Source: an uncultured bacterium (GTDB lineage Bacteria; Electryoneota; Electryoneia; Electryoneales; Electryoneaceae). From it: a stretch of 34,027 nucleotides of DNA. Below are positions 7,572 through 18,275 of the stretch, piece by piece (position 1 is the stretch's first letter; the number at the start of each line of letters is the position of its first letter). The translations under genes and the position numbers were made by a program. Location: contig CAJVXH010000015.1 of NCBI GenBank assembly GCA_913009835.1, positions 1 through 34,027 of the forward strand, written 5' to 3'. The notes beneath the pieces were generated by a model, which ran no database searches, was not told the DNA's origin, and saw only the letters and a program-made list of their open reading frames with translations.

Positions 7572-8743
7572 GCCCCCGGGACAATCGTCGCCTCAAGATC
7601 GGCATCGTATGCTACCCCACTACCGGCGGCAGCGGAATTGTCGCGGTGGAGATAGCCCACGCTCTGGCTGACCGTGGGCATGAGGTCCATGTCATCAGCT
7701 ATTCGGTACCAGTACGCCTGGATACTCTGCGTCCTAACCTGCGTTTCCACAACGTCAGCGTGCCCGAATACGCACTGTTCGAGTATCCACCATACAGCCT
7801 CGCGTTGGCCGCACAAATAGCCGAAGTTGCCTGCAAATTCCATCTGGACGTTTTACATGTCCACTACGCCATCCCCCACGCTGTCTCCGGATGGTTGGCC
7901 AGACGAATCTGCGGACGTTTTGACATGCCGCTGATCACAACCCTGCACGGCACCGACATCACCATCATAGGTAAAGACGCATCCTATTTGCCGATTACCC
8001 GTTTCTCGCTGGAAGAATCTGACCTGGTTACCGTTGTCAGCTCCTGGCTTGAGGGCAAGGTCAGAGAAGTGGTGGAGTGCCTGTGCTCCTGCGAAGTTGT
8101 GCACAATTTCGTCGATCCGGATATCTTCAAACCCCTTGACAATGGCGAGCCACACCCGTTCCCTTGTGACCCGAATGTTCCAGTGCTGATGCACATGTCC
8201 AACTTCCGTCCGGTTAAACATATCCCGGACGTGATCGACACCTTCCTGGGTTTGCGCGCGAGAATGAAGACTCAACTGGTACTCATCGGCGACGGCCCGG
8301 AGGCCTCGGTCGCCAAGCAACGTATCAACTCATCACCATACGCAGCCGACGTTCAGTTCCTCGGCCCACAACAAAATGCCGAACGTCTGCTACCATATGC
8401 GGACGCATTCATCTTCCCCTCGAACGCCGAGAGTTTCGGACTGGCTGCTCTTGAGGCCCAATCGTGCGGGGTGCCAGTCATCGGATATAACGTGGGTGGA
8501 CTGCCGGAAGTTGTGGAAGATGGGAAAACTGGTCTCCTGTGTGAGGTCGGCGCAGTTGACGAAATGATTAACGCCTGCGAAAGACTCTTCAGGGATAAAG
8601 ATTATCAGCAACAAATCGGCAGAGCTGCCCGTGAACGAGCAGTATCTCAGTTCAGCGCCAAACCAGCAATCGACCGCTATGAGGAGCTGTACTGGCAGGC
8701 AATCATTGAGCTGGAGAAAAGTGGGGATGGAGAACGAACCTGA
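7568..8743 (+). CDS. bshA: N-acetyl-alpha-D-glucosaminyl L-malate synthase BshA (GT4)
   Basis: KIGIVCYPTTGGSGIVAVEIAHALADRGHEVHVIS, VHYAIPHAVSGWLA, TLHGTDITIIG, GT4 motif ESFGLAALEAQSCGVPVI; ATGA overlap with bshB1. Confidence 0.95.
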   Translation: MSPRDNRRLKIGIVCYPTTGGSGIVAVEIAHALADRGHEVHVISYSVPVRLDTLRPNLRFHNVSVPEYALFEYPPYSLALAAQIAEVACKFHLDVLHVHYAIPHAVSGWLARRICGRFDMPLITTLHGTDITIIGKDASYLPITRFSLEESDLVTVVSSWLEGKVREVVECLCSCEVVHNFVDPDIFKPLDNGEPHPFPCDPNVPVLMHMSNFRPVKHIPDVIDTFLGLRARMKTQLVLIGDGPEASVAKQRINSSPYAADVQFLGPQQNAERLLPYADAFIFPSNAESFGLAALEAQSCGVPVIGYNVGGLPEVVEDGKTGLLCEVGAVDEMINACERLFRDKDYQQQIGRAARERAVSQFSAKPAIDRYEELYWQAIIELEKSGDGERT

Positions 8744-8771
8744 CTTCCACCCCTTGTGATGACTTAGCAGC

Positions 8772-9124
8772 ATCCGGTTATCCAGTTAACTCAGCTATGA
8801 GACATGCCCCTGTGACCCGCCGTCTTTTTGGCGGTTCGCAGGGATTATCCAACGACAATCCTGAGTTCTGAGAAAACAGACAGGCACATTATAACTTGCG
8901 GATCAACCCTGTTATCGCCTGCGGCGGTAACAGGGGCATATTCATCGTCGGATTATCCAACGACAATCCTGAGTTCTGAGAAAACAGACAGGCACATTAT
9001 AACTTGCGGATCAACCCTGTTATCGCCTGCGGCGGTAACAGGGGCATATTCATCGTCGGATTATCCACGATATAAATCTCGTGGGCATGATGCAACCGCA
9101 GTTGAAGCAACTGGATAACTGGAT
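8772..9124 (+). mobile_element. non-autonomous MITE-like/structured intergenic repeat, copy 1 (contains a 108-bp tandem duplication)
   Basis: Terminal inverted repeats ATCCGGTTATCCAGTT (8772-8787) vs reverse complement of 9109-9124 (15/16); core shared with 17394-17492. Confidence 0.7.
8843..9058 (+). repeat. exact tandem duplication, 2 x 108 bp
   Basis: GATTATCCAACGACAATCC...CATCGTCG repeated identically at 8843-8950 and 8951-9058; a partial third GATTATCC follows. Confidence 0.97.
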
Positions 9125-9178
9125 AGCAGCAAGCTGACATTCAAACAAGAACATCAAACATATGCAGGAGTTGTACCG

Positions 9179-10537
9179 ATGCAGATGAATGCAGAGATTT
9201 TCCGTCAATACGACATCCGCGGGATAGTCAAGGATGATCTGACACCGACCGTTGTCGAAGCGCTGGGACGTGGATTCGGGTCATGGGTACGTGATGAAGG
9301 TGGCAAGACCATTGTCCTCGGACGTGATGGTCGCCTGACCGGACCAGCCCTCCGTGATTCCTTTATCAAGGGAGCGCTGACCACTGGATGCGATGTCATT
9401 GACATCGGAGATGTCCCCACACCTGTAACCTATTTCGCCACCTATCACCTGAATCCCGATGCCTCGGTGATGATCACCGGCAGCCATAACCCGCCGGAAT
9501 TCAACGGATTCAAGATGATGATGGGCAAGGATACTGTCTTCGGCGACATGATACAGGAGCTTCGAGTTCGTATCGAAGAGGAGAATTTCCAAACGGGGCA
9601 GGGTACCCGTAGTGAGCAAAATGTTGTCCCGGAGTACATGGATCACATCGTCGGCAACATCAAATTCGCAAGACCGGTCAAACTAGCCCTCGACTCCGGC
9701 AATGGTATCGCTGGCGCTGTCGCACCTGAACTCTTCCGCAGGATGGGAATAGATCCAGTCGAGCTGTTCAGCGAAGTGGACGGCAATTTCCCCAATCATC
9801 ACCCCGACCCGACAGTCGTCGAGAACGTTCAGGACTTGAAGAAGGCCGTTCTTGAGCAGGGACTCGAATTCGGAGTTGGTTTCGATGGTGATGGCGACCG
9901 TATCGGCGTCATCGACGATAAAGGCAACATCCTCTGGGGCGACCGTCTGCTCGCATTATTCGCGCGTGACGTACTTAAGAACTTCCCCGGCGCCAGCATC
10001 ATCGGTGAGGTCAAATGCAGCAAGGCTCTGTATGACGATATCGCCAAACACGGTGGCAAACCCATCATGTGGCGCACCGGCCATTCCTTCCTGAAGCAGA
10101 AGCTGCGCGCTGAAGACGCCAAACTGGCCGGCGAGATGAGCGGACACATGTTCTTCAACGACCGCTACTTCGGCTATGATGATGCAATCTACGCCGCCGC
10201 TCGATTGACAGAAATAATTGCCCGTTCCGACAAACCGCTTTCAGAATTACTATCAGATCTGCCGGATTATCCATCAACACCGGAAATCCGTTTCGATTGC
10301 CCGGATGCTATCAAGTTCAAGGTGGTCGAGAAAGTCGTGGAGTATTTCAGGGGCAAGTATGACGTGGTCGATATTGACGGCGTCCGAGTCAATTACGAGC
10401 ACGGATGGGGTCTCGTTCGCGCCAGCAACACCCAACCGGTACTGGTGATGCGTTTCGAGGCGGACACCGAAGAACGGGTCGCGGAATACCGCAAAGACGT
10501 CGAGGACGCCGTCGCAGAAGCTCTCAAGAGTTTCTAG
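9179..10537 (+). CDS. phosphomannomutase/phosphoglucomutase
   Basis: FRQYDIRGIV, MITGSHNPPEFNGFKMM active site, GFDGDGDRIGVID, metal/sugar loop GEMSGHMFF, RASNTQPVLVMRFEA. Confidence 0.95.
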   Translation: MQMNAEIFRQYDIRGIVKDDLTPTVVEALGRGFGSWVRDEGGKTIVLGRDGRLTGPALRDSFIKGALTTGCDVIDIGDVPTPVTYFATYHLNPDASVMITGSHNPPEFNGFKMMMGKDTVFGDMIQELRVRIEEENFQTGQGTRSEQNVVPEYMDHIVGNIKFARPVKLALDSGNGIAGAVAPELFRRMGIDPVELFSEVDGNFPNHHPDPTVVENVQDLKKAVLEQGLEFGVGFDGDGDRIGVIDDKGNILWGDRLLALFARDVLKNFPGASIIGEVKCSKALYDDIAKHGGKPIMWRTGHSFLKQKLRAEDAKLAGEMSGHMFFNDRYFGYDDAIYAAARLTEIIARSDKPLSELLSDLPDYPSTPEIRFDCPDAIKFKVVEKVVEYFRGKYDVVDIDGVRVNYEHGWGLVRASNTQPVLVMRFEADTEERVAEYRKDVEDAVAEALKSF

Positions 10538-10554
10538 AAAGTAGCCGGCATATC

Positions 10555-10680
10555 CGAACACGTCTTGACCGAACACGAACACGTCTTGACCGAACACGAA
10601 CACGTCTTGACCGAACACGTCTTGACCGAACACGTCTTGACCGAACACGTCTTGACCGAACACGTCTTGACCGAACACGT
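10555..10680 (+). repeat. tandem repeat, 15-bp unit CGAACACGTCTTGAC (two units enlarged to 21 bp)
   Basis: Seven consecutive units read directly: 10555, 10570, 10591, 10612, 10627, 10642, 10657, followed by a diverging partial unit. Confidence 0.97.
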
Positions 10681-10747
10681 CATCCTGACGGACGACTTGG
10701 TCAGTTTCAAGTCGTCCGAGAAGGATCTCGGTTTTAATCTTTTGATA

Positions 10748-10878
10748 ATCCGCGTAAATACAGGCCCGTGTTTGCTTGCAAACGCGGATCAACCAGCAAG
10801 TTGGATGAATGGTAATGGATGACAACGTGTATTTCAAAGTGACATTCATCCGCGCTTGTCAAGCAAGCACGGGCCTGT
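10748..10878. repeat. inverted pair of hairpin-bearing repeats
   Basis: ACAGGCCCGTGTTTGCTTGCAAACGCGGAT (10760-10789) is nearly the reverse complement of ATCCGCGCTTGTCAAGCAAGCACGGGCCTGT (10848-10878). Confidence 0.85.
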
Positions 10879-10903
10879 TCTGCCCACTTTCACCAATGCT
10901 CAA

Positions 10904-17159: not shown

Positions 17160-17269
17160 TATTGAGTATGGAAGATAGTGACCTAAATGACTGCACTCAC
17201 CCTTGACAGCAAGCTCCGCTCCCGTTACGTTCGCTTAAGGATAACACGAGTCGGACACCGTTTGGATAC

Positions 17270-17518
17270 TTCCGGTTATCCAGATTCGTCAACTGAGGTG
17301 TCATGCCCCAGACATTTATGTCTGGGATGAATCGCGCTGGCAGTTTCCTGACATGGGTCTGATTCAAGGTGCCCCTGCGGGCTTTGCCAGCAGGGATAAT
17401 CCGACGATGAATATGCCCCTGTTACCGCCGCAGGCGATAACAGGGTTGATCCGCAAGTTACAAGGTGCCTGTCTGTTTTCTCAGGACTCAGGCCGGTGAA
17501 CTAACTTGATAACCAGAT
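17270..17518 (-). mobile_element. non-autonomous MITE-like/structured intergenic repeat, copy 2 (opposite orientation)
   Basis: TTCCGGTTATCCAG left end and CTTGATAACCAGAT right end; 17394-17492 matches the reverse complement of 8860-8958 at 96/99. Confidence 0.72.
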
Positions 17519-18275
17519 GGATACAACAATCACCATCTACCTGGCAGCTGTAATTGTGGGTGCAATTCTTATTCGAGGCTTGCGTCTGCTCGACACTCCC
17601 GCAACAATCGTCGCTGCGATCATGGCACTGTCACTCTTGATGGCGGGCGGCTGGAGCTGGCTCACCCCGGCCCTCGCATTCCTCATCACCTCCTCCATCT
17701 GGACACACTGGCCTGGTGCATCAAAATCAGAAGACAGCACCCGCGACTATAAACAGGTTCTCGCCAATGGCCTCGTCCCAATGTTGGCAGCAGCCTTGTT
17801 TCTGATCACCGGCTACCCTTCCTTAGCACCAGTAATCGTCGGTTGCTTCGCCGCCGCCGCCGCCGATACCTGGGCTACCGAGTGGGGTGGCAAATTCGGG
17901 GGACGACCGCTTGACCTGCACACTTTCAAGTTCGTTAATTCCGGCCAATCAGGTGCTATCAGTCTAATTGGTACAATTGCCTCTGCCGTTGGAGCAACCT
18001 TTGTCACCACAATCAGTGCATTCGCTGGAATGATCCATTGGGAGGTCGTTGTCGCTGTAAGCCTCGCGGGAACTGTCGGTTCACTCATCGACAGCCTCGC
18101 CGGAGCCTGGCTGCAAGGACTATGGATCGACGATTCGGGACAAATACTCGAAACGCCTCCGGAGGACATAAAAAGACCTCCGCCGCGTGGTATACAATGG
18201 GTCAATAACGATATCGTCAATCTTATCACAACACTCGCCGGAGGGCTACTCGCCTTCTGGTGGACAGCCACTTGA
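17517..18275 (+). CDS. DUF92/TMEM19-family membrane protein
   Basis: AAAAADTWATEWGGKFGGRPLDLHTFKFVNSGQSGAISLIGTIAS and GTVGSLIDSLAGAWLQG. Confidence 0.9.
   Translation: MDTTITIYLAAVIVGAILIRGLRLLDTPATIVAAIMALSLLMAGGWSWLTPALAFLITSSIWTHWPGASKSEDSTRDYKQVLANGLVPMLAAALFLITGYPSLAPVIVGCFAAAAADTWATEWGGKFGGRPLDLHTFKFVNSGQSGAISLIGTIASAVGATFVTTISAFAGMIHWEVVVAVSLAGTVGSLIDSLAGAWLQGLWIDDSGQILETPPEDIKRPPPRGIQWVNNDIVNLITTLAGGLLAFWWTAT

Follow-up and report, generated by a model that had tools for sequence, protein, structure and literature searches.

Short elements with IS1595-like ends and REP hairpin interiors, probable IS1595-type MITEs, in an uncultured Electryoneaceae bacterium

Results

The window analyzed here is the whole 34,027-nucleotide stretch of DNA from the source genome, G000 (3.59 Mb; the bin is 86% complete, and its contigs break within the repeats described below). 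It contains two short elements with the same ends (Table 1). Copy 1 is flanked by a glycosyltransferase gene, which ends at 8743, and a phosphomannomutase-type gene, which starts at 9179; copy 2 is found where a DUF92 membrane-protein gene begins. The initial annotation had described copy 1, from the sequence alone, as a MITE-like intergenic element with inverted-repeat ends at 8772 and 9124, three stem-loops, and a 108-bp duplication. We found the inverted ends to be real (8772-8796 and 9100-9124; 25 nt, 80% complementary), although the outermost A (8772) and T (9124) are part of the target, leaving 8773-9123 as the element. All three stem-loops were confirmed, as was the duplication, which is perfect; without it, the element is 243 bp long. 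The terminal inverted repeats begin TCCGGTTATCCAGTT, an exact 8-bp target duplication, TAGCAGCA, flanks the element on both sides, and the predicted fold is far more stable than that of shuffled sequence (z of -7.0 with DNA parameters).

Table 1. Coordinates of the two MITE copies and their parts in the window
Feature	Positions	Strand	Remark
Copy 1, MITE, 351 bp	8773-9123	+	Subtype A-B-C with internal duplication (A-B-B-C)
Copy 1, left target-site duplication	8765-8772		TAGCAGCA; sequence and 8-bp analysis
Copy 1, right target-site duplication	9124-9131		TAGCAGCA
Copy 1, left terminal inverted repeat	8773-8796	+	TCCGGTTATCCAGTTAACTCAGCT
Copy 1, right terminal inverted repeat	9100-9123	-	
Copy 1, REP-like hairpin A	8804-8845	+	ATGCCCCTGTGACCCGCC..GGCGGTTCGCAGGGAT; free copies in sister species
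Copy 1, 108-bp perfect tandem duplication, unit 1	8842-8949	+	Internal
Copy 1, 108-bp perfect tandem duplication, unit 2	8950-9057	+	Internal
Copy 1, REP-like hairpin B, first copy	8907-8939	-	
Copy 1, REP-like hairpin B, second copy	9015-9047	-	
Copy 1, REP-like hairpin C	9065-9088	-	Degenerate here: CCACGATATAAATCTCGTGGGCAT
Copy 2, MITE, 247 bp	17271-17517	-	Sister subtype E-D-B; same ends as copy 1
Copy 2, left target-site duplication	17263-17270		TGGATACT
Copy 2, right target-site duplication	17518-17525		TGGATACA; its TG plus the element's last A form the DUF92 ATG
Copy 2, REP hairpin E	17303-17328	+	Same hairpin flanks RAYT gene at G000:C97
Copy 2, REP hairpin D	17369-17397	+	Tandem D arrays flank RAYT gene at G000:C146
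Copy 2, REP-like hairpin B	17412-17444	+	

Copy 2 had been taken for a second full-length copy at 17270-17518. The two elements do have their ends and one block of ~99 bp in common (97% identical, in opposite orientation), but their other modules differ, and the boundaries of copy 2 are 17271 and 17517. Copy 2 is a sister subtype of copy 1, not a repeat of the same sequence. When the flanks of copy 2 are joined, TTG GAT ACA ACA appears as an earlier start of the DUF92 gene, and the present ATG at 17517 is made of the last A of the element and the TG of the target duplication. The insertion of copy 2 probably converted this TTG start into ATG. The initial annotation had proposed a search for empty sites, and the orthologous regions upstream of DUF92 in the sister species (G001) and in G003, recognized by a conserved TTGACA-N17-TACGTT-like promoter, contain no MITE. 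In the window (17203-17525), copy 2 separates the DUF92 gene from this promoter-like pair, which is conserved in three genomes; a sigma-70 scan upstream of DUF92 returned no promoter by the scan's criteria.

A BLASTN search of the source genome, also proposed in the initial annotation, matched the element in at least 40 places, far more than the two copies of the window. The 14-bp end ATCCGGTTATCCAG gave 202 matches with up to two mismatches in the 3.59 Mb, compared with 9 for the reversed-pattern control. From these data, there are about 100 MITE ends in G000 and roughly 50 to 100 copies. Complete copies are mostly 243 bp long (range, 92 to 351 bp) and have the form TCCGGTTATCCAG...CTGGATAACCGGA with an 8-bp duplication. 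Exact 8-bp duplications were present at 6 of the 26 complete copies, and 10 of the 26 had duplications with at most one mismatch. In 5,000 shuffles that paired flanks from the two sides at random, the corresponding means were 0.5 and 1.4 and the maxima were 4 and 7. The target duplications, which the initial annotation had suggested inspecting, thus peak sharply at 8 bp, and other lengths gave at most one copy. In one copy, an odd terminal G precedes the end and recurs in the duplication (TCATCCCG), which fixes the element boundary. This copy and the MITEs of the distant genome G180 (see below) place the outer A and T in the target and set the duplication at 8 bp. Ends of the form ATCC..GGAT with 6-bp duplications were rejected, being one base off on each side and in conflict with IS1595.

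The remaining 16 of the 26 complete copies have hybrid flanks and no near-exact duplication, which counts against the interpretation favored below. Hybrid flanks are expected from recombination between copies, and short-read misassembly may be another cause of the copies without duplications. Several contigs end inside the MITE repeat, two of them in Illumina adapter sequence. At these two contig ends (L169 on G000:C136 and L170 on G000:C81), the adapter (AGATCGGAAGAGC...) stands right within the MITE, which is an assembly artifact.

The flanking consensus over 103 distinct ends was TT-GC-NN-GC-A, with position frequencies of 0.6 to 0.9, and it identifies the palindrome TTGCNNGCAA as the target site and TGCNNGCA as the duplication. 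Furthermore, 38 of the 103 ends sit in one half of a REP-like palindrome, G (CAGGCCCGTGTTTGC..GCAAACACGGGCCTG), although G occurs only 64 times in the 780 kb sampled. Insertion sites of the MITE thus match TTGCNNGCAA and are often located at the apex of a further REP-like palindrome. Other elements are known to insert on the symmetry axis of REP palindromes, with hybrid duplications that are explained by recombination (PMC1525189). ISRm22, ISPsy8, ISPpu9, and IS1397 share with our element this insertion point in a palindromic repeat and some hybrid duplications; unlike them, the inserting element here is a MITE with other REPs, and only about a third of its ends are in a REP-G-like palindrome (PMC1525189). 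G003 has a hairpin related to G, CAGGCCCGCGGTTGCTTGCAACCGCGG, at the flank of a Y1 transposase gene (L244).

Next, we considered the interiors. Neither the REP nature of the hairpins nor the swapping of interiors between subtypes had been noticed in the initial annotation. All of the hairpins share the framework RTGCCC-stem-loop-stem-GGG(A/T)nnATC. A REP sequence is recognized by its flanking a REP-associated tyrosine transposase (RAYT) gene in inverted orientation, and this arrangement was found for hairpins D and E. The RAYT gene L093 (G000:C146) has ten D hairpins upstream and six inverted ones downstream, RAYT L252 of the sister species has D hairpins at its flanks as well, and L092 (G000:C97) has E hairpins on both sides in inverted orientation. 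The L093 and L092 proteins pass the NCBIfam cutoff for REP-associated tyrosine transposases. Hairpins D and E are thus REP sequences of RAYTs. A RAYT gene flanked by A, B, or C was not found in G000 to G003 or G006; their common architecture with D and E suggests that A, B, and C are REP sequences as well. Hairpins A to E have RTGCCC instead of the GTAG or GTGG head that marks the GTAG superfamily. Another RAYT gene, L094 (G000:C148), is flanked by GTAG-type hairpins (GTAGCCCGGTTTCG..), a type seen only there, so this genome contains classical GTAG REPs alongside those of the RTGCCC type.

The hairpins are arranged as modules, with A-B-C as the main type and E-B-A, E-D-B (copy 2), E-F-A, and single E as the others. 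The minimal element is 92 bp long and consists of one E hairpin with an exact 8-bp duplication, TGCTGGCA. Counting a hairpin as MITE associated when it lay no more than 330 bp inward from an end in the 780-kb sample, we found A near an end in 35 of 39 cases and B in 32 of 34, with E (16 of 59) and G (8 of 64) far less often so placed. Hairpin A has at least 16 occurrences in the sister species G001, where the inspected copies are without MITE ends. One G001 contig (L105, G001:C40, 900-2600) carries ~0.8 to 1 kb of DNA in which blocks of hairpins A, C, and D and another REP are tandemly repeated, without MITE ends. In G000, an A-type hairpin unit of 33 bp is tandemly repeated about eight times after a MITE end (L164, G000:C132, 1-263).

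To place the ends in a transposase class, we compared them across 384 genomes. The end TCCGGTTAYCCAGTTnnnTCAGC was present in 6 of these, namely, 5 of the 39 from the phylum and the distant G180. The IS1595 transposase domain PF12762 was detected in 8 of the 39 phylum genomes, including G000, whose proteins belong to the IS1595 family by NCBIfam (NF033547). In G000, these hits are on contigs other than that of the window, and the MITEs are short and have no transposase gene of their own. Two intact G000 IS1595 copies have the ends TCCGGTTATGCCTTTAGTTCAGC, which differ from the MITE at ~6 of 23 positions, and show no clear target duplication. The IS1595 copies of G002 have the ends TGTGGTTATCCAGTTAACTCAGC, in which 20 bases (GGTTATCCAGTTAACTCAGC) are identical to the MITE end, and in G015 the exact 23-mer end stands beside an IS1595-like remnant. 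Two genomes harbor MITEs of their own in which the same ends enclose other interiors, G003 with the 8-bp duplication TGTATGCA and the distant G180 with TACGTTTA. IS1595-family target duplications are 8 bp long and usually A/T rich (PMC12561309). The elements combine three marks of an IS1595-family MITE: terminal repeats that match an IS1595 element, a duplication of ~8 bp, and a short body without a transposase gene.

The initial annotation had also called for a transposase with MITE ends. Related IS1595 ends were found (G002 and G015), but the exact mobilizing transposase was not, and a complete IS1595 element with exactly the MITE ends was not found in G000 (bin 86% complete, with contigs breaking inside repeats). 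An IS1595-family MITE usually, though not necessarily, shares its genome with an autonomous partner whose ends are identical; the partner can be lost or unassembled. Contigs of G001 (L127, L136, L182, L186, and L188) and one of G006 (L184, G006:C549) break 30 to 100 bp inside the MITE terminal repeat, and in some of them an ORF terminus, ...TPRRKSAEPTG, has its stop codon within the repeat. These breaks probably mark an unassembled autonomous element. The ORF terminus had no Pfam match, and its abutting the MITE end implies that another transposase may use the same end.

Discussion

The elements share ends of ~23 bp, of which this genome has about 100, as well as 8-bp target duplications and a preference for TTGCNNGCAA, and both features of the window are very probably IS1595-type MITEs that carry RAYT-type REP hairpins as cargo. 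The proposal of a mobile, nonautonomous element in the initial annotation holds, given the high copy number, the 8-bp duplications, the related transposase ends in the phylum, and the uninserted DUF92 upstream regions of two relatives. In the mechanism that we propose, an IS1595-family transposase would act in trans, binding the TCCGGTTATCCAGTT ends and cutting and pasting the MITEs. The REP hairpins would first have been spread by RAYTs, then caught between a pair of ends and multiplied as passengers, and recombination between copies may have swapped modules and flanks. We more tentatively raise a dual-mode unit, a possibility that we consider unlikely, in which RAYTs (HUH enzymes with a single-stranded mechanism) still recognize the hairpins while an IS1595-type DDE transposase recognizes the ends. 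One system could then carry REPs into and out of the MITE while the other spreads the composite; this would account for the modular interiors (E, A-B-C, E-D-B, and E-F-A). What is new is that the MITE ends of a DDE-type (IS1595) system carry the REPs of a RAYT (HUH) system; among the openly licensed papers searched, we found none that describes an IS1595-type MITE with RAYT-type REPs.

A different transposase, outside the IS1595 family but with the same end sequence, could instead move the MITE. The ORF terminus without a Pfam match beside the G001 and G006 ends would fit this explanation, as would the presence of ends without an IS1595 hit in G001 and a target, TTGCNNGCAA, that is GC centered where IS1595 targets tend to be A/T rich (PMC12561309). 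Given the 20-bp identity to the G002 IS1595 ends, the exact end by the G015 IS1595-like remnant, and the 8-bp duplications, we judge it improbable. Still less likely is that the whole unit is a REPIN or BIME, inverted REPs that a RAYT moves as one single-stranded unit, with the terminal repeats being incidental. The interior does consist of REP hairpins, A and B are inverted with common 14-nt arms, and RAYT genes exist in the genome. A REPIN would be bounded by two REPs and have no target duplication, whereas non-REP terminal repeats and 8-bp duplications bound this element. Such sharp 8-bp duplications are not made by IS200/IS605-type transposition (PMC2817692), the ends are constant while the interiors vary, and the same ends enclose unrelated interiors in G003 and G180.

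The initial annotation had offered a structured RNA family as an alternative. A riboswitch, noncoding RNA, or attenuator family conserved in 5' leaders would account for the very stable fold (z of -7.0) and for both window copies lying ahead of genes. We give this explanation almost no credence, because there was no match among 4,227 Rfam families, the flanking genes are unrelated, target duplications are present, modules are freely swapped, and the MITE is absent from the orthologous DUF92 region in relatives.

Our preferred reading, an IS1595-type MITE with REP cargo, relates the element to several known systems. With IS1595-family insertion sequences and their derived MITEs, it shares related terminal repeats, 8-bp duplications, and a transposase family present in genome and phylum; it differs in having a REP hairpin interior rather than a deleted transposase gene, in its palindromic target TTGCNNGCAA, and in that the exact partner was not found. 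With the REP/RAYT systems (REPtrons, BIMEs, and REPINs; PMC2817692, PMC3116915, PMC3733652), it shares GC-rich hairpins of 20 to 45 bp, of which D and E flank RAYTs in inverted orientation, but the tag is RTGCCC rather than GTAG, the REPs are inside a DDE-type MITE, and A and B spread almost only by the MITE. The Correia/NEMIS, RUP, and ERIC MITEs are likewise short, high-copy, and intergenic, with inverted ends and strong folds (PMC2817692, PMC3733652). They have other end sequences and transposase families and are not known to carry RAYT REP cargo. The plasmid and phage collections searched gave no match to the element, and viral contigs gave no matching ends.

The spread of REP sequences is attributed to RAYTs. 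In the species studied here, hairpins A and B occur almost exclusively within a DDE-type MITE, and A is found without MITE ends in the sister species. Hitchhiking on a MITE thus offers REPs another concrete way to multiply, one that could be examined by setting REP families carried by MITEs against those that are not, and it illustrates how two types of genomic parasite can move jointly. With a palindromic target preference, repeats nest in repeats, one way in which the mosaic intergenic regions that break the assemblies of such genomes can arise. Elsewhere in the window (10537-10880), units of the CGAACACGTCTTGAC type form a short tandem repeat, after which two REP-G hairpins inverted with respect to each other (~10760 and ~10849) lie immediately upstream of a squalene/phytoene synthase gene.
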